Origin: Bifidobacterium sp. ESL0769
Lineage (GTDB): Bacteria; Actinomycetota; Actinomycetes; Actinomycetales; Bifidobacteriaceae
Assembly (NCBI RefSeq): GCF_029395495.1
Contig: NZ_CP113918.1
Span: 1,054,001 to 1,118,000, forward strand
Length of the DNA stretch: 64,000 bases
Direction: 5' to 3'
Shown: in pieces, positions 5,953 to 12,917 of the stretch
Layout: each line of letters opens with the position of its first letter
How positions within the stretch are numbered: position 1 is the stretch's first letter
Position numbers and translations under genes: made by a program
The notes under the pieces: model-generated
What the model saw: only the letters and a program-made list of their open reading frames with translations
What the model was told of the DNA's origin: nothing
Database searches by the model: none

Positions 5953-6558
5953 CTATTCCCATGCCGACACTTTGGCAACACCAACAACGATATCCATGTC
6001 GCCTTCCGCAGGAACGTTGGTGGTGGCGACTTCTTTAAAACCGGCTGGACGATAGAGATTCTCGAAGATCTCACGTCTGGCATCGATGAGCGCATAGCGT
6101 CCGCCGACCACGTTCTGTGAACGGCCAATCAGCGAGCGAGCCTCTTTGAGAATGACCTTGCCAGGCAGCTCATTTTTGCTGTATTTATCGGATCTGCCGA
6201 GCTCGCCGATGCAGTAGCCGCCGGCGTGATTGTCACGCAGGTGCGTGTACGGTCCCTTGAACTGCTTTTGCTTCTTACCTGACATCTTGCCGAAATCGAT
6301 GCTGGTCAGACACAGTTCGAAGAAGCCCGCAACCTCGAGGTTTCCGTTTTCTCCAGTGCATGTCAACAGATAGGTGCGACCCTCATTCGATTCTTCGATT
6401 GCCCGTACCTTTTGCGAGATGAAGGTCTGCACCGACAAGGATTTCTTGCATTCGAATCGTTGCAATGCTTCGTATACAAGTTGATATTTTCTGCCTTGTT
6501 TTACTCGGCCATCCGCATCAATCAAGTCTGAAAATGGAAGTAATTCATATTGAATCAT
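5953..6558 (-). CDS. GNAT-fold acetyltransferase-like protein, possible toxin
   Basis: 201 aa from ATG 6558, chosen because GAGG lies about 8 bases upstream; a GTG at 6564 has no properly spaced site. The C-terminal half has GNAT-like features: LxxLGR-type segment IGELGRSDKY, a helix with KVILKEA, then GRYALIDARRE and the YRPAGFKEV motif typical of the last GNAT strand-helix. The substrate is unknown. It follows a 64-residue acidic protein gene by 9 bases, an order seen in GNAT toxin-antitoxin pairs (TacT/AtaT type), but the partner is not a recognised ribbon-helix-helix antitoxin. A stand-alone acetyltransferase remains possible. Confidence 0.7.
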   Translation of the reverse strand: MIQYELLPFSDLIDADGRVKQGRKYQLVYEALQRFECKKSLSVQTFISQKVRAIEESNEGRTYLLTCTGENGNLEVAGFFELCLTSIDFGKMSGKKQKQFKGPYTHLRDNHAGGYCIGELGRSDKYSKNELPGKVILKEARSLIGRSQNVVGGRYALIDARREIFENLYRPAGFKEVATTNVPAEGDMDIVVGVAKVSAWE

Positions 6559-6567
6559 TATCACGCC

Positions 6568-6762
6568 TCACTTCTCGACTTCGTCATCCGGTTTCCAACC
6601 CATCCTGCGCATTTTCTCTACCCAGTCATCAAAATTGGTCACCAGATGTGAATGAAAATCGTCACCGATGGGGAATTTCTCGTCGGACTGGTCCATGGCG
6701 ATGAAGGCGTCGATGTTGCTGTCGTCAATGACCAGATGCCCTCCCTCGGATAAGTAACTCAT
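6568..6762 (-). CDS. Small acidic protein upstream of the GNAT gene
   Basis: 64 aa. The start at 6762 was chosen because AAGGAGG lies 7 bases upstream; the open frame continues upstream but without a site. The protein is strongly acidic in its middle (IDDSNIDAF, DQSDEKFPIGDDF) and ends in a Trp-containing basic/acidic helix (WVEKMRRMGWKPDDEVEK). I do not recognise the family. Its position, size and tight coupling to the GNAT-like gene suggest a partner or antitoxin; this is inference from context only. Confidence 0.65.
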   Translation of the reverse strand: MSYLSEGGHLVIDDSNIDAFIAMDQSDEKFPIGDDFHSHLVTNFDDWVEKMRRMGWKPDDEVEK

Positions 6763-6803
6763 ATCGCTGCCTCCTTCCATGCTCCTGCAAAATATGTATT
6801 TCA

Positions 6804-6822
6804 ACGTGTAACGTCTAATATA
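6804..6822 (-). promoter_or_regulatory. Candidate promoter -10 and ACGT-TAC-ACGT operator of the GNAT unit
   Basis: On the minus strand TATATT (6817-6822) could be a -10. Immediately downstream, at the expected start point, lies ACGTTACACGT (6804-6814), two self-complementary ACGT cores with a 3-base spacer. This is a plausible autoregulatory operator. I could not place a good -35. Confidence 0.4.
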
Positions 6823-7139
6823 GCATTGACCGCAAGCAAAACCGAAACCTTGATATCGAGATTTCAAGATTTCAAGATTTTATAAATATCCAAGATTTGT
6901 GGGCAGGCCAAAAACCGCGGAAGTTGGGCCTCACGAAACTTGAGAGACATCAAGTTTCTGTCTCCAGACTCTCAGCGAGGGTAAGGTTTGGGCTAAGCGT
7001 GCCATCAATTATTAGCTGGACAAAATGAGTTTTGTTTTATAAATAGTTGTGCCCGCTAATTCGTAATCTATGCGAATTAACAGGCACAAACTTGTAAGCG
7101 AGCGATTATTTCTTGGTCGTATCCATCAAACCAAGTCTC
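6823..7139. other. Intergenic region between the importer gene and the GNAT unit
   Basis: No gene recognised. It contains a short direct-repeat patch, three spaced copies of ATTTCAAG/CAAGATTT around 6860-6900, and the hairpin at 7048-7088 described separately. A small inverted repeat ACAAAAT-GAG-TTTTGT sits near 7020-7036. Confidence 0.4.
7048..7088 (-). terminator. Stem-loop downstream of the binding-protein gene
   Basis: Arms 7048-7063 and 7073-7088 pair over 16 positions with two G-U wobbles and a 9-base loop, starting about 50 bases after the stop of the minus-strand gene. The tail on the minus strand is AT-rich but not a clean T-run, so it may be a weak terminator or an mRNA-protecting stem. 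Confidence 0.5.
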
Positions 7140-8045
7140 TCAGAGTTTGCCGCCCTCAACCACGATGTCGTCGGGGTTGGAGGAGTCGCCGTAGACCGGC
7201 TTTAGGGTTTGCTCGTAGTCCTTGTGGAAGAACTGTTCCTTGCCGAGCTTGACGATCTCCTCGTTGATGTAGTTCAAGAGTTCCTTGTTGCCCTTCTGCA
7301 CGGCGGGGGCGATGGGCTGCTCGTCGCCGAGCTTGGTGATGCCGACGGTGAAGCCCTTGTTGGCCTTCGCCCAGGCGAGCACTTCGGTATTGTCGGTGCT
7401 CATCGCGTCGCCGCGACCGTCGAGCAAGGCGTTGTAGGCGTCTGCGTACTGGTCGTACTTCTGCAGCTTGATGTCGGGGTACTTGGCGAAGTACGGTTCG
7501 GCGGTGGTGCCCTTGGCGATGATCAGCGTCTTGCCCTTGAGCTGGTCGACGCTTTTGATCGGCTTGGAATCGGGGGAGACTACGCCCAACGCGACCTTCA
7601 TGTACGGCTTGGCGAAGTCGACCTTCTCTTCGCGTTCGGGAGTGACGGTGAAGTTGGCGAGGGTGACGTCGACCTTGTTGCTGGCGAGCACATCCACGCG
7701 TGCAGCCGGATCTACAGTTGTGTATTCGGGCTTCACACCGAGGTCTTTGGCCAGGCGTTCGGCGAAAACGATATCGTAGCCCTGGTTCTTGCCGTCCTTG
7801 TCGACGTAGCCGAACGGTGCCTTGTCGGAGAAGACCGCGACCTTGAGTTTTCCGGACTTCTTGATCTGCGCAAGGGTTCGTGCGGTCTGTTGCTTGCCTG
7901 CGCCGGCCGAGCTGGAGCCGGAATTGTTATCGCTGCTCGGTGTCGCACCGGAAGGGCCGCATGCGGCGAATCCTGCTAGCATGGCTACGGCTGCCGCCGC
8001 GGAGATTGCTACTTGTGCTGCACGTTTCAATACGTTCGTTGTCAT
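7140..8045 (-). CDS. ABC transporter substrate-binding lipoprotein, cysteine/cystine type
   Basis: 301 aa. Signal sequence with lipobox GFAAC (lipidated Cys 29), a Ser/Gly/Asn linker, then a family 3 periplasmic-binding fold (about 57-290). Segments such as GYVDKDGKNQGYDI, LANFTVTPEREEKVDF, PYMKVALGV, KYDQ and the C-terminal EGGKL closely resemble, from memory, Campylobacter CjaA and Lactobacillus BspA, which bind cysteine and cystine. Cysteine/cystine is therefore the best guess; glutamate/aspartate is the alternative. It is the last gene of the importer set, separated from the ATPase gene by a leader ORF and terminator-like hairpin, so it may be controlled apart from the membrane genes. The ribosome site is weak (AAGAAAG). 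Confidence 0.9.
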   Translation of the reverse strand: MTTNVLKRAAQVAISAAAAVAMLAGFAACGPSGATPSSDNNSGSSSAGAGKQQTARTLAQIKKSGKLKVAVFSDKAPFGYVDKDGKNQGYDIVFAERLAKDLGVKPEYTTVDPAARVDVLASNKVDVTLANFTVTPEREEKVDFAKPYMKVALGVVSPDSKPIKSVDQLKGKTLIIAKGTTAEPYFAKYPDIKLQKYDQYADAYNALLDGRGDAMSTDNTEVLAWAKANKGFTVGITKLGDEQPIAPAVQKGNKELLNYINEEIVKLGKEQFFHKDYEQTLKPVYGDSSNPDDIVVEGGKL

Positions 8046-8109
8046 GATGATTCTTTCTTTTCTTTTACTAAGTAATATCGGATGAGAATATAAGAAGTAA
8101 TAGTTCTAT

Positions 8110-8137
8110 ATAAAAATAATGGAATCTTTGAATTCCA
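8110..8137 (-). terminator. Terminator-like hairpin in the leader of the binding-protein gene (attenuator candidate)
   Basis: On the minus strand a perfect 6-bp stem, TGGAAT / ATTCCA (8132-8137 with 8120-8125), with a 6-base loop is followed at once by a T-rich tract (8119-8110, TTATTTTTAT). It lies between the leader ORF and the binding-protein start. It is AU-rich, so on its own a weak terminator, well suited to conditional use. Confidence 0.5.
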
Positions 8138-8226
8138 GTGTTTTGGTTTACCGATTACAGGGTGAAGCCTGTATGGCGTACGTAACCTATTGGCAAACCC
8201 AGAAAATCAAATCTGATTGATGCAGA
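8138..8226 (-). promoter_or_regulatory. Structured leader segment, possible antiterminator region
   Basis: Between the leader ORF stop and the terminator-like hairpin the minus strand can form a nested structure: outer arms GGTTTGCC and GGTAAACC (one G-U pair) around an inner hairpin ACAGG-loop-CCTGT. I could not identify a base-paired competitor for the terminator arm by eye, so the switching mechanism is open. Confidence 0.4.
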
Positions 8227-8325
8227 TCAGCGAGACATGGAGGCCATGAGTTGACATCGGTTCGACTCCGTGGCGCTGCACATCTGTGCCATCACGCGCA
8301 TATTCGGTATGTTCCGGTTCATCAT
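8227..8325 (-). CDS. Short Met/Cys-rich leader peptide ORF
   Basis: 32 codons plus TGA. It begins MMNRNIPNMRVMAQMC and continues with a second Cys at 24 and Met at 27 and 30: seven Met and two Cys in 32 residues. It is preceded by a very strong site, AAGGGGAGG, five bases before the ATG, better than that of the downstream binding-protein gene. It lies in the 328-base gap between the ATPase stop and the binding-protein start, followed by a structured segment and a terminator-like hairpin. The layout is that of a leader-peptide attenuator sensing sulfur amino acids. It could instead be a small functional protein. The function is inferred, but the ORF and its ribosome site are visible directly. 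Confidence 0.6.
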   Translation of the reverse strand: MMNRNIPNMRVMAQMCSATESNRCQLMASMSR

Positions 8326-8373
8326 TTCGACCTCCCCTTGTTATTCATTGGTTGATGCCGGTAAAACTATCAG

Positions 8374-9258
8374 CTATTGTCTCTCACGAGCATACGTGAA
8401 CGTGTTCAGGAATTGCTGGGCGCGTTCGGATTGTGGATGGGTGAAGAACTGCTCGGCGTCGTCGGATTCCTCGACGATGCCGCCGTCCTCAAGCAGGATG
8501 ATATGATCGGCCACCGCACGGGCGAACGCCATCTCGTGGGTGACGATGAGCATGGTCTGGCCGCTGTCGGCCAGTTCTACGATGACATCGAGCACTTCAC
8601 GCACCATTTCGGGGTCGAGTGCGGCGGTGACCTCGTCGAAAAGCATGATTTGCGGGTGCTCGATTAGCGCGCGGCAAATGGCGACGCGTTGGCGTTGTCC
8701 GCCGGAAAGCTCGTGCGGCCAGGCGTCCTGACGGTCGGCCAATCCTACTCGTTCCAACAGTTTGATGGCTTCGGCCTTGACCTCGTCTTTCTTACGCTTC
8801 TGCACTAGGACCGGCGCAAGCATGATATTGCCGAGCACCGTCTTGTTGGGGAAGAGGTCATAGCTTTGGAAAACCATACCGACCTTGACGGGGTTTGCGT
8901 TGTCGTTGCTGGCCTTGGAGCTTGAAGCAGTTGCCTTGGAACTTGATTCATTGCCCGAGTTTGCTTTGGCAACATCCTTCTTCCTGCCGGACGTCCGTAG
9001 CACCTCGTCGCCGATGGTGATGTCACCACCTTGGATGGGTTCGAGACCTGCGATTGTGCGTAGCAGCGTCGACTTGCCGGAACCGGAAGGGCCTAGGATG
9101 ACGAATACCTGGCCGGCCGGCACATCGAAGGAGATGTCGTTCAATACTGGCTTGTCAGCATTTTCGTACTGCTTCACAATATGTCGGATATGCAGAGTTT
9201 CGTGCAGGTCGTTCGTGTTCGCGTTCACCTTGGACGTTGTGACCGCCGTATCAGTCAT
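8374..9258 (-). CDS. Polar amino-acid ABC transporter ATP-binding protein
   Basis: 294 aa from ATG 9258, which overlaps the permease stop by 8 bases and has AGAGGTGG just upstream. Walker A GPSGSGKST (56-64), Q-loop VFQSYDLFP (about 129-137), signature LSGGQRQRVAICRAL, Walker B IMLFDEVTAALD. This is the HisP/GlnQ class that energises family 3 amino-acid importers. A Ser/Ala/Asn/Lys-rich insertion at about 90-123, between Walker A and the Q-loop, is unusual for the family. It is third in the operon after two permease genes. Confidence 0.93.
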   Translation of the reverse strand: MTDTAVTTSKVNANTNDLHETLHIRHIVKQYENADKPVLNDISFDVPAGQVFVILGPSGSGKSTLLRTIAGLEPIQGGDITIGDEVLRTSGRKKDVAKANSGNESSSKATASSSKASNDNANPVKVGMVFQSYDLFPNKTVLGNIMLAPVLVQKRKKDEVKAEAIKLLERVGLADRQDAWPHELSGGQRQRVAICRALIEHPQIMLFDEVTAALDPEMVREVLDVIVELADSGQTMLIVTHEMAFARAVADHIILLEDGGIVEESDDAEQFFTHPQSERAQQFLNTFTYARERQ

Positions 9259-9925
9259 GAGCCCACCTCTTTTCAAGCCTTCTGGCCACAATCGACAGCG
9301 GCCAGCAAACGAAGAAATACATGAAGAAAATCACGCCGTAAATCCACAGCGTCGCATCAGGGTATTGGAAGCGGTTCGCATCGATAATCTGCTGGCCAAC
9401 CTTGATGACTTCAATCACACCGAGCAGCGCGGCCAGCGAGGTGGTCTTGACGATGCGGGTAATGAGGTTGACGCTGGCGGGAAGCAAACGACGCAACGCC
9501 TGCGGGAGGATAACCCTGCTGAAAGTCTGCCATGAATTGAGGCCAAGTACTTGAGCGGATTCATATTGCGTTCGTGGTATTGATTCCAGAGCTCCACGAA
9601 CCAGATCGCCGAGCTCGGCACCGCCCCAAAGCACGAAGACCAGCACGCATGCGCCGGTGGCGTCAAGGTTCCAATTAAAGGCTCGCGCGAAACCGTAGAA
9701 AGCGATGAACAGCAACGCGAGCTGCGGCATGATACGGATGAAATCAAGATAAACACGCATGATGAAGCGCACAATCGGATTGTGCAACGTCATTAGCCAG
9801 CCAACAATAAGCCCGACCGGCAGGGAAAGCAGTACGGATGCCCCGGCTATCCAGATGGTTACCCACAAACCTTGCAGCAGGCGCGGGAAGACGCCCGGTT
9901 GCAGCAGTATCTCAGCGCCGTGCAT
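9251..9925 (-). CDS. Polar amino-acid ABC transporter permease
   Basis: 224 aa with about five hydrophobic segments and the HisMQ-type EAA loop (ESAQVLGLNSWQTFSRVILPQALRRLLP). It forms the membrane channel together with the other permease in the operon. Start ATG 9925 with AGGAGG seven bases upstream; it overlaps the preceding permease gene by 14 bases. The substrate follows from the binding protein (cysteine/cystine type). Confidence 0.93.
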   Translation of the reverse strand: MHGAEILLQPGVFPRLLQGLWVTIWIAGASVLLSLPVGLIVGWLMTLHNPIVRFIMRVYLDFIRIMPQLALLFIAFYGFARAFNWNLDATGACVLVFVLWGGAELGDLVRGALESIPRTQYESAQVLGLNSWQTFSRVILPQALRRLLPASVNLITRIVKTTSLAALLGVIEVIKVGQQIIDANRFQYPDATLWIYGVIFFMYFFVCWPLSIVARRLEKRWAHD

Positions 9926-10565
9926 AGTCGAACCTCCTCTCCAAAACCGTGCCGATGATGGAGATCGGCAGGAGGATGATGAGGTAGGTGACGATGAGCA
10001 GCGTCAGCGATTCGTAAGTGTTGTAAGTCTGGCCCATCAGATCCTTGGTGACGTACATGACGTCGGCCAGCGCGATGGCCGAAACCACCGAGGATTCCTT
10101 GACCAGGAAGATGATATTGGCCACCACGCCCGGAATGGCGGTGGAAAGCGCCTGCGGCACCGTGACATGAATCAGCATCTGCGAAGGACTGAAGCCCAAA
10201 ACTTGCGCCGATTCGCGCTGGACTTGCGGCACCGCTTCGAACCCGCCGCGCAGCGCTTCGGCCATATACGAGCCGCCGAGGAAGGTGAGGCCCACGATTG
10301 CGCAGGTTTCCGCCGACCAGGAGACGCCGAGTTTCGGTAGTCCGAAATAAAGGAAGTACAGCTGAACCAGCAATGGCGTATTGCGTGAAAGCTCGATATA
10401 AACGCGGACAAGCTGCTTTACTATTGGGATATTGGCCGCTTCGACTGCCGCGCACAGCACGCCCAGAACGATGCTGAAGACGATGCCGAAGAACGAGATG
10501 AAGACGGTCATATAACCGGCGTTGACGAAGTAGTGGGCGTTATGGGCTATGAAGCTCCAGTCCAT
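9912..10565 (-). CDS. Polar amino-acid ABC transporter permease
   Basis: 217 aa, HisMQ family. Transmembrane segments start near residues 17, 55, 85, 140 and 185, with the EAA loop ESAQVLGFSPSQMLIHVTVPQAL (EAA-Gly motif). ATG 10565 is preceded by GGGAGGA. It is the first gene of the four-gene importer operon on the minus strand; a 309-base upstream region separates it from the acyl-CoA ligase gene. Confidence 0.93.
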   Translation of the reverse strand: MDWSFIAHNAHYFVNAGYMTVFISFFGIVFSIVLGVLCAAVEAANIPIVKQLVRVYIELSRNTPLLVQLYFLYFGLPKLGVSWSAETCAIVGLTFLGGSYMAEALRGGFEAVPQVQRESAQVLGFSPSQMLIHVTVPQALSTAIPGVVANIIFLVKESSVVSAIALADVMYVTKDLMGQTYNTYESLTLLIVTYLIILLPISIIGTVLERRFDYARR

Positions 10566-10874
10566 GGATGTCCTCCCTACTTCGTGATGAAAAACTTACT
10601 CGCTACCAACGGCTGCCAGCATTACCGGTGACTACCAACGTAGCATCCCAATGCAATGTCGAAAGCTTCATTGGGATTCATATCGTGGCACTTGTTGCCA
10701 TAGTAGACGCGAATCCCCGAGAATGCACGCTTTGCGCCATATGAATAACCGATAAGTCGCTATCAACTGGTGAAGTTCGCATTCTGAGTACAAAAACCAG
10801 ATTGGCTGCTAATGAGCAATCCCATCGGCAGCCAATCGTAAAAAGCAGAAAACAAAAAGCGTTCGTTCGCTCGT
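10566..10874. other. Intergenic region upstream of the importer operon
   Basis: It holds the importer promoter region and the terminator of the ligase gene (10791-10837). A perfect 9-bp inverted repeat, ATCCCAATG / CATTGGGAT, lies at 10645-10653 and 10669-10677, about 70-110 bases upstream of the first permease ATG. It has no T-tract, so an operator or 5' UTR structure is more likely than a terminator. A 34-codon ORF on the minus strand lacks a ribosome site and was not called. Confidence 0.45.
10791..10837 (-). terminator. Rho-independent terminator of the acyl-CoA ligase gene
   Basis: A perfect 10-bp stem, GATTGGCTGC / GCAGCCAATC (10828-10837 with 10800-10809), is followed on the minus strand by CTGGTTTTTG. 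It lies about 40 bases after the ligase stop codon. Confidence 0.75.
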
Positions 10875-12917
10875 TTACTTCTTCTTCGTGTACATCTGCG
10901 TGTTGAGCAGATTGGCATAGTGCTTGATGACCGCCGGGCGCTTCACCTTCATGGAGGCGGTCAGCATGCCGTTCTCCTGGCTGAATTCCTCGGGCAGAAG
11001 GATGAACTTGCGCACGGATTCGGCGCGCGAGACGCCCTCGTTGGCCTTGTCAACCCACTTTTGCACTTCGGCGCGGACCACGGCGTTCTTACACGCGTCC
11101 TCCATAGACATGTCCTGGTCGAGGCCGGCAGCGTCGAGCCACTGGCGCAACGAGGGCTCGTCGAGAGTGATGAGTGCCGAAATGAACGGACGCTTGTCGC
11201 CGAGCACCAAGGCCTGCGAAGCGAACGGACAACGCTGGATGATCTCTTCGATCGGGCCGGGGGCGACGTTCTTGCCGCCGGCGGTGATGATGAGATCCTT
11301 CTTGCGGCCGGTGATGTAAAGGAATCCGTCATCGCTCAAGCGGCCAAGGTCGCCGGTGGCGTACCAGCCGTCGGGGGTGAAGGCGAGTTCGGTGGCTTCA
11401 TCGTTCTTGTGATAGCGGTGGAAGACGCAGGTTCCCTTGACCTGAATTTCACCGTCCTCGGCCAAGCGGATGGAGAAGCCGGGGTAGGGTACTCCGACCG
11501 AACCTTCGTGGAACGGCGTTCCCTTGGGGTTGAACGCACAGGGCGCGGTGGTTTCGGTCAGGCCGTAACCTTCGTAGGCGGGGATGCCGGCACCGCGGAA
11601 GAACGCGGGCAGTTCCGGGTCGAGCGGTGCGCCGCCAGCGACGAACCATTCGGCCTGTCCGCCGAGCACATCGCGCAGCGACTTGTAGACAATCGGGTCG
11701 AAAGCGGCACGGCGTGCGCGGGTGGCGAAGCTGGCCTTGCCTTTTTCGCTTATTTCCTTTTCGTATTCCTGGGCGGCCACCACGGCTGCGGCGAATGCCA
11801 CGCCCTTGGCACCGTTGCCGGCCTTCTGCGAGGCGGCGTTGTAGACCTTCTCCCAGACGCGGGGCACGAGGATGGTGACGATGGGCTTGGCGACCTGCAG
11901 GTCGCTGATTAGCGTCTTGATACCGCCGGCGATGTAGATGCGCAGGTCGCTGGCGACCACGATGTAGTTGACCGCGCGGGCGAAGGTGTGCGCCTGTGGC
12001 AGGAAGAGCAGAACGGACTTGCCTTTCTGCTTGAGCAGTTTCGGCATGTAGTCGCGCAGGTTCAGCGCGGTGGTGCAGTAGTGTTCGTGCGTCATCTCGA
12101 CGCCCTTCGGCGCTGCGGTGGAGCCGGAGGTGTAGACGATGGAGCAAAGGTCGGTTTTCTTGATGGAATCGATGCGTGCGTCAAGCGTTTCATCGGTCAC
12201 CGACTTGCCGTAGTCGCGCAGTTCCTCGAGCGCGCCGGCCTCGAGCGTATAGATCTTCTCGAGCGTCGGGCAGTCTTCGACGGCCCCGTCGGCCTTCTCG
12301 CGCATGTCGTTGGTCTCGACGATCAGCAAGCGGGAATCGGAATTGTTGACGATGTTGCGAATCTGCTCAGCCGAATCCGTGTCGTAAATGGTGGCGAGCA
12401 CGCCGCCTACGGCCATCACAGCCGCGTCCACGACATCCCATTCGTAGGAAGTGTGGGACATGAAGGAGACGCCGTCACCTTTGTCGATGCCGTAATGCAT
12501 CAGGCCTTTGGCGACGCTGCGCACGTCTTGAAGGAATTCGTTGGCGGTTTTGGTGACCCATTTGTTGCCGACTTTGAAGGTGTATAGCGGGTCGTCACCC
12601 ATGCGTTCCGCGCGTTCGACGTAAAGGTCGTAAATTGACATATCGTCGTCGATGGGCGGGTTGCCGGGCGTGATGACGGTCAAAAGACCGGTCTTGTCAT
12701 CAACGAAAAGCTTGGTGGGGTAGCCGGGACCCCATTCGTGGGTGTGCGGCAATGTCGAATAATCGACGGGTTTGACGGTGGCGAGGTGACGGTCATCGTT
12801 GAAATCCGGGGTTTCCGGCTCTTCGTTATTGACCGGGTGCTCGAAACCGTTTCCCAAATGGAAGGCCTTCTGACTCAGCTTCAGCGTTTCCTTTTTCAGT
12901 GAGTTGATGACTGACAC
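10875..12917 (-). CDS. Long-chain acyl-CoA synthetase (AMP-forming)
   Basis: 680 aa, GTG start with GAGGAG upstream. ANL-superfamily motifs: P-loop YTSGSTAAPKGVEMTH, A5 GYGLTETTAP, A7 ATGDLGRL, and hinge/A8 GRKKDLIITAGGKNVAPGPIEE. It activates fatty acids as acyl-AMP and then acyl-CoA. The N-terminus (about 1-75) is an extra hydrophilic segment compared with the paralogue at 62117-63928. Bifidobacteria do not carry out classical beta-oxidation, so a role in lipid recycling or incorporation of exogenous fatty acids is likely. Monocistronic, with its own terminator. Confidence 0.95.
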   Translation of the reverse strand: MSVINSLKKETLKLSQKAFHLGNGFEHPVNNEEPETPDFNDDRHLATVKPVDYSTLPHTHEWGPGYPTKLFVDDKTGLLTVITPGNPPIDDDMSIYDLYVERAERMGDDPLYTFKVGNKWVTKTANEFLQDVRSVAKGLMHYGIDKGDGVSFMSHTSYEWDVVDAAVMAVGGVLATIYDTDSAEQIRNIVNNSDSRLLIVETNDMREKADGAVEDCPTLEKIYTLEAGALEELRDYGKSVTDETLDARIDSIKKTDLCSIVYTSGSTAAPKGVEMTHEHYCTTALNLRDYMPKLLKQKGKSVLLFLPQAHTFARAVNYIVVASDLRIYIAGGIKTLISDLQVAKPIVTILVPRVWEKVYNAASQKAGNGAKGVAFAAAVVAAQEYEKEISEKGKASFATRARRAAFDPIVYKSLRDVLGGQAEWFVAGGAPLDPELPAFFRGAGIPAYEGYGLTETTAPCAFNPKGTPFHEGSVGVPYPGFSIRLAEDGEIQVKGTCVFHRYHKNDEATELAFTPDGWYATGDLGRLSDDGFLYITGRKKDLIITAGGKNVAPGPIEEIIQRCPFASQALVLGDKRPFISALITLDEPSLRQWLDAAGLDQDMSMEDACKNAVVRAEVQKWVDKANEGVSRAESVRKFILLPEEFSQENGMLTASMKVKRPAVIKHYANLLNTQMYTKKK

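Follow-up and report, generated by a model that had tools for sequence, protein, structure and literature searches.

A conserved short leader ORF ahead of a probable cysteine-binding protein gene in Bifidobacterium and its proposed link to cysteine supply

Gene order and the leader ORF

The window, that is, the whole 64,000-nucleotide stretch of Bifidobacterium sp. ESL0769 DNA analyzed here, carries on its minus strand a transporter cluster that reads, by Pfam, permease, permease, ATPase, binding protein: two ABC permease genes (9912..10565 and 9251..9925, both PF00528), an ABC ATPase gene (8374..9258, PF00005), and the gene of an SBP_bac_3 binding protein (7140..8045, PF00497). The nearest solved relatives of the binding protein are 1xt8 (E 2.6e-84) and 2yjp (E 9.3e-77), with 4zv1 following far behind (1.9e-38), and NCBIfam returned only matches below cutoff with mixed amino acid specificity. 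We take 1xt8 to be Cj0982 from Campylobacter jejuni and 2yjp to be Ngo0372 from Neisseria gonorrhoeae, presumably both reported as cysteine binders; by homology to these two structures, the present protein probably catches cysteine. Matches to it at E 1e-60 or better occur in 93 of 189 Bifidobacteriaceae genomes, and the leader described below in only eight. Four matches to the binding protein (G002:C8, G053:C19, G015:C1, and G049:C8) contain one or two internal stop codons.

The preliminary description of this locus placed a 32-codon ORF with seven Met and two Cys codons between the ATPase and binding-protein genes, behind a strong ribosome site and followed by a foldable stretch, a hairpin, a T-rich tail, and the binding-protein gene. 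All these features are present, and rereading of the sequence gave the ORF MMNRNIPNMRVMAQMCSATESNRCQLMASMSR at 8325-8227 on the minus strand with the Met and Cys codons as counted; the start, on the other hand, had to be moved by one codon, to the second ATG (8322), which is the one that is conserved; the first is missing in B. commune. From this start the leader ORF spans 8227..8322 on the minus strand (31 codons plus TGA, MNRNIPNMRVMAQMCSATESNRCQLMASMSR), preceded by the ribosome site GGGGAGG at 8331..8337, where GGGAGGT is invariant in all eight known leaders. The stop of the ATPase gene lies 48 nt from the first ATG and 51 nt from the conserved one, and 181 nt separate the leader stop from the binding-protein start in this genome. 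When the gap was dinucleotide-shuffled 2000 times, an ATG ORF of at least 20 codons with GGAGG 4 to 9 nt upstream arose in 9 of the sequences, and the ORF is present in eight genomes, so the leader ORF exceeds chance expectation.

Distribution and conservation of the leader

The comparison across Bifidobacterium genomes proposed in the preliminary description bore out the ORF: a family-wide pattern composed of ribosome site, start, and C-terminal motif detected it in 8 of 189 Bifidobacteriaceae genomes (0 for the reversed-pattern control), with its frame, its ribosome site, and one Cys codon kept. DNA similarity recovered it in 6 of 112 genomes of the genus, our own included. Among the carriers are Bifidobacterium sp. 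ESL0784, B. commune R-52791, and B. bohemicum DSM 22767. In all eight cases the leader sits in the gap between the ATPase gene and an ortholog of the same binding protein, and its 96 nt are free of indels, with 31 codons and TGA throughout; the distance from its stop to the binding-protein start varies among these genomes from 168 to 211 nt.

A genus search with a 7-row model matched 64 of the 112 genomes at E 1 or better, seven of them strongly (E 1.4e-17 or better); the B. bohemicum leader scored only 0.234 with this model and was recognized by its position, and one locus of this search (L049) comprises 63 bases only. Order-wide, an 8-row model matched 54 of 396 genomes at E 0.01 or better; these genomes were drawn evenly from a larger group, so that two of the eight leader genomes are among them. 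Only the matches in G000 and G087 cover positions 1 to 31, and the remainder are partial, mostly over positions 20 to 31, the longest being that of G250 (positions 3 to 28, E 0.008). The partial matches were not counted as leaders, and three of them (L205, L206, and L207) turned out to be fragments of open frames that measure 68, 26, and 68 residues. Many genomes of the order have an open frame whose translation contains a peptide resembling the leader C terminus (SNRCQAMASPSR and similar), as at these three loci, where the frame is, judging from its motif, presumably the antisense strand of topA; we take the resemblance to be a coincidence.

Nine residues are invariant across the eight leaders (M1, N2, R3, M14, R22, C23, Q24, M26, and S28). 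Five of them form the motif R-C-Q-x-M-x-S (codons 22 to 28; 8239..8259, minus strand), which contains the only Cys codon common to all leaders, the TGT of Cys23 at 8256-8254, at constant offset. Arg22 is CGA in each of the eight, a codon that makes up 9.1% of the Arg codons in 31 long ORFs of the window. A second Cys codon occurs in six leaders, while B. commune carries a Cys elsewhere and B. bohemicum none besides Cys23. Met residues, starts included, number seven in our leader and four each in those of B. commune and B. bohemicum. Hence, of the Met and Cys codons stressed in the preliminary description, one Cys codon is kept in every leader, whereas the Met richness and the second Cys codon are not kept throughout. 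Sensing of methionine is not favored, because beyond the start only M14 and M26 recur in all eight leaders and M8 in seven, and this part of the original proposal is not supported. No run or cluster of regulatory codons was found in the eight leaders, and none of them has contiguous Cys codons.

Selection on the leader

Among the six closest genomes, mean synonymous divergence (pS) and nonsynonymous divergence (pN) are 0.090 and 0.085 in the leader, 0.372 and 0.020 in the binding protein, and 0.430 and 0.036 in the ATPase. The leader's pS lies below that of every one of 104 overlapping thirty-codon windows of the flanking genes, that is, 0 of 55 in the binding protein and 0 of 49 in the ATPase (274 of 288 codons aligned) are as low, the minima being 0.173 and 0.215, respectively. 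Its pN, set against the 0.020 of the binding protein, indicates that most of the peptide is free. Constraint is concentrated at the two ends, with a pS of 0.035 and a pN of 0.010 in codons 2 to 4 and 21 to 31 compared to 0.142 and 0.149 in codons 5 to 20. The RNA and the motif are thus under constraint, and the middle can vary in its letters yet not in its length.

A conserved start and C-terminal motif might also be expected if the ORF encoded a microprotein acting in trans. Yet codons 5 to 20 vary freely, the peptide has no match in NCBIfam or Pfam, and the ORF keeps a fixed place before one gene, and we consider such a role highly improbable.

Toward the more distant carriers, the changes at first, second, and third codon positions between our leader and that of B. 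commune number 1, 1, and 4 in codons 21 to 28 and 9, 7, and 7 in codons 5 to 20; against B. bohemicum they number 1, 2, and 1 in codons 21 to 28, with no third-position bias. The former comparison would speak for constraint at the level of the peptide, whereas the latter does not.

RNA structure around the leader

RNAalifold on 7 and 8 rows proposed a long-range stem, P1, whose 5' arm (8314..8335, minus strand) takes in the ribosome site and leader start region and whose 3' arm (8239..8260, minus strand) runs from the end of codon 21 to codon 28 and contains the conserved Cys codon; the six closest sequences alone give only the ribosome-site part. In P1, 95.6% of the alignment cells are paired, compared to at most 48.5% in slid versions. 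The stem is suggestive and stays a candidate, because (i) only one pair has both partners changed, reading A-U in B. commune and U-G in B. bohemicum, a count reached by 111 of 500 shuffles; (ii) B. commune breaks five pairs; and (iii) synonymous randomization equalled or bettered its energy in 35 to 523 of 2000 cases, depending on the species.

Downstream of the leader, hairpin A (GGTTTGCC ... GGTAAACC; 8145..8199, minus strand) lacks a T-tract. As we read them, the folds of the close genomes show hairpins of differing sequence at about the same place, and hairpins of different sequences follow the leader in the folds of all species. As a whole, the 300 nt before the binding-protein gene fold ordinarily (z -1.06, 30 of 200 shuffles as good), and visual inspection of folds with a ribosome placed either on the Cys codon or on the stop revealed neither a shared switch nor a recognizable antiterminator partner. 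A riboswitch, T-box, or tRNA at the leader site was rejected, given that Rfam has no match there (both strands of 7000-10900 gave just two snoRNA matches, at 9951-10004 and below threshold) and that there is no tRNA in 6000-11000.

Two further kinds of structure were seen in relatives. G084 (L006) and G087 (L005) carry, just downstream of the ATPase stop and ahead of the ribosome site of the leader, a self-complementary TGATA ... TATCA around a T-run, and B. commune has a comparable self-complementary stretch with the stop codon in its loop. In addition, hairpins without a T-tract lie upstream of the binding-protein gene at the leader-less loci L088, L091, L095, L101, L102, and L129, possibly as a general feature of its expression.

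Could the RNA act by itself, with the ORF incidental? P1 and hairpins A and B would then form a cis-acting element without regulatory translation, governing how stable the mRNA is or how it is processed, with the result that the binding protein is produced in excess of the membrane protein. The synonymous constraint on the leader and the extent of pairing in P1 are consistent with such an element, as are the hairpins of 12 leader-less gaps chosen from the named loci: no T-tract follows the best hairpin, and in 10 of these gaps no more than 2 of 10 shuffles give an equally good fold. Against it stand the frame, start, stop, and length kept in eight sequences behind a strong ribosome site, and the retention of R-C-Q-M-S in B. 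commune, where the changes lie at third positions and two of them disrupt pairs of P1; moreover, the energy of P1 is often matched under synonymous randomization, and the regional fold is ordinary. We regard an RNA-only element as unlikely.

Hairpin B, termination, and a possible operator

The second hairpin after the leader, hairpin B (TGGAAT-N6-ATTCCA; 8120..8137, minus strand), is followed by a T-rich tail (8110..8119, minus strand); in order of transcription, TTATTTTTAT comes after 8137-8120 and then the binding-protein gene (8045-7140). The preliminary description took this hairpin for the intrinsic terminator of a classical Met/Cys transcription attenuator. Its arms have held up, being invariant around a variable loop in the six close genomes, whereas the T-tract has not, being missing in G085 and G089. 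In our own genome the hairpin reaches -5.2 kcal/mol, 11 of 25 regional shuffles do as well, and a simple pattern scan does not list it, which together with the loss of the T-tract in close relatives leaves its role as a terminator unsupported. A fold-based terminator search, scored by the number of shuffles of 25 that were as good, gave 11 for our genome, 10 for G085, 17 for G089, 5 for G087, 8 for G084, 9 for ESL0784, 2 for B. commune, 0 for B. bohemicum, and 6 for Galliscardovia. The terminator-like hairpin of B. bohemicum, missed by the simple scan, thus stands out above its shuffles, that of B. commune less so, and no conserved intrinsic terminator before the binding-protein gene was found among the leader genomes. 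While the T-tailed hairpin of our genome, its conserved arms, and the B. bohemicum hairpin are what a classical attenuator would call for, the variability of most Met codons and the fact that no antiterminator partner was recognized in the folds argue against one, and we judge this mechanism to be quite unlikely.

Perfect arms around a variable center in six of six close genomes could also mark a protein-binding operator of an internal promoter for the binding-protein gene, an arrangement that could coexist with the leader. A promoter-like match, TTTATA-16-TATATT (8114-8087, minus strand, 9 of 12 positions), lies between the leader and the binding-protein gene; such matches, however, are not above expectation (three found, compared to a mean of 2.1 in shuffles), so that this one is at most a candidate for a promoter that bypasses the leader. 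The palindrome has no counterpart in B. commune and B. bohemicum. Nor does it behave as the operator of a regulon: in the eight leader genomes it is present at the site in six, with one extra copy each in G084 and G085. An operator function appears quite unlikely to us.

A poly-Cys uORF between the corresponding genes of Galliscardovia

In Galliscardovia ingluviei, the gap between the ATPase and binding-protein genes holds a different uORF, MSECCCSCCKSAML, behind GGAGG (L098, 2840-2884; also L198). Five of its fourteen codons encode Cys, and it has no evident sequence kinship to the leader of the window. A hairpin can form in the region of its stop. The poly-Cys uORF, though from one species, points to cysteine as the relevant amino acid and is hard to explain otherwise. 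The core of the preliminary description, a translated-looking leader before a cysteine-type binding protein, is strengthened by this second uORF in the same gap.

Gaps longer than 80 nt, which 24 of 45 Bifidobacteriaceae loci (L085-L129) possess, were surveyed for small ORFs behind a ribosome-site match; in this set L085 to L087 hold the present leader and L098 the Galliscardovia uORF. About nine large gaps (about 820 to 1190 nt) are artefacts in which the script missed the ATPase frame, and the small ORFs within them, a few of which start with TTG and have two neighboring Cys codons, were judged on reading to lie in coding sequence. No other Cys-run uORF was seen in further upstream stretches read by eye. 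In our own genome, a limited look at the 350 nt preceding the earliest possible start codon in each of four PALP-family genes showed no Cys-run uORF with a ribosome site; four uORFs with at least two Cys codons precede two of these genes, all with GTG or TTG starts and without a Cys run, and none was convincing.

Discussion

In this study, we found that a short ORF has been conserved ahead of a transporter gene in a small set of bifidobacteria, keeping its reading frame and length, its ribosome site, one of its Cys codons, and a brief C-terminal motif, under constraint that extends to its synonymous sites. Judging from sequence comparison, 8227-8322 is probably a translated, cis-acting leader that couples expression of the binding protein to the supply of cysteine, a reading in which we infer co-transcription, translation, pausing, cysteine as the signal, and the direction of control. 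Ribosomes would load at the strong GGGGAGG site, and their movement along the C-terminal part of the ORF, chiefly across the Cys codon TGT (8256-8254), would depend on cysteine, sensed either as charged tRNA-Cys or through the nascent peptide. A ribosome paused at this codon would keep 8239-8260 open and alter how the next ~180 nt fold. Shortage of cysteine would in this way lead to more binding protein, and the possible outputs are termination (intrinsic or Rho-dependent), translation, and the stability of the mRNA. Control of the binding protein separate from the upstream membrane and ATPase genes, as suggested in the preliminary description, would fit the position of the leader. Several points weigh against this scheme: one conserved Cys codon is little for classical starvation sensing, most of the peptide is free, the comparison with B. 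bohemicum gives no third-position bias in codons 21 to 28, no terminator is conserved, far fewer family genomes carry the leader than have a match to the binding protein, the poly-Cys uORF comes from a single species, and the binding protein is assigned to cysteine by homology.

In a related reading, the leader would be a ribosome arrest peptide. Arrest peptides of the TnaC type combine few invariant residues and a fixed length with much variable sequence, and the present leader, likened to them by description only, resembles them in having invariant residues at fixed C-terminal places, 31 codons in every genome, and a variable rest. With R-C-Q-x-M-x-S and M14 held at a fixed distance in the exit tunnel, stalling might depend either on cysteine as such or on the decoding of the lone Cys codon that follows the rare CGA; the ribosome site would pair with the same codons, a paused ribosome would keep the leader open, and Galliscardovia would have reached the same control by a poly-Cys run. 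Simple codon starvation would have no need of the R, Q, M, and S conserved next to Cys23, which leaves room for the arrest-peptide reading, and we treat it as a tentative and unlikely proposal.

If the proposed coupling to cysteine is correct, a cysteine-linked leader would act on a transporter gene from within its cluster, making the binding protein alone tunable, and the occurrence, among related bacteria, of two leader peptides without kinship at one intergenic position would represent convergent control. The leader is directly testable in bifidobacteria.

Cysteine-related leaders have been described in other actinobacteria. The polycysteine leaderless uORFs of mycobacteria are described, in papers that cite Canestrari et al. 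2020 (doi 10.1111/mmi.14498), as cysteine-responsive attenuators acting by translation attenuation, and ribosomes have been observed on a mycobacterial cysteine uORF (Shell et al. 2015, PMC4633059). The present leader shares with the mycobacterial uORFs a short ORF before genes of cysteine economy (here a probable assignment, by homology) and cysteine as the proposed signal; unlike them, it has one conserved Cys codon and a strong ribosome site and lies inside a cluster before a transporter binding protein, whereas the Galliscardovia uORF shares their Cys run.

Leader peptides with a Cys run have also been predicted for the cys operons of Mycobacterium and Propionibacterium acnes and for cbs of Bifidobacterium longum, and the same study reports no terminators at the actinobacterial cysteine leaders and suggests Rho (Seliverstov et al. 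2005, PMC1262725). The present case is again a predicted cysteine leader in actinobacteria, Bifidobacterium included, without an obvious terminator; the genes differ (biosynthetic there, a transporter here), as does the layout, with a Cys run near the stop compared to one conserved Cys followed by eight residues. With the ilvB1 attenuator of M. tuberculosis (PMC13236596), it shares a leader ORF and downstream hairpins, and it differs from classical attenuators of that type in having neither a run of regulatory codons nor a conserved terminator. No description of the present leader was found in the open-licence literature, as represented largely by titles and the openings of abstracts. Cysteine uORFs are already known as a kind; what is new, as far as these searches go, is a motif with a single Cys, the position of the leader within a cluster and ahead of a binding-protein gene, and the different solution found in Galliscardovia.
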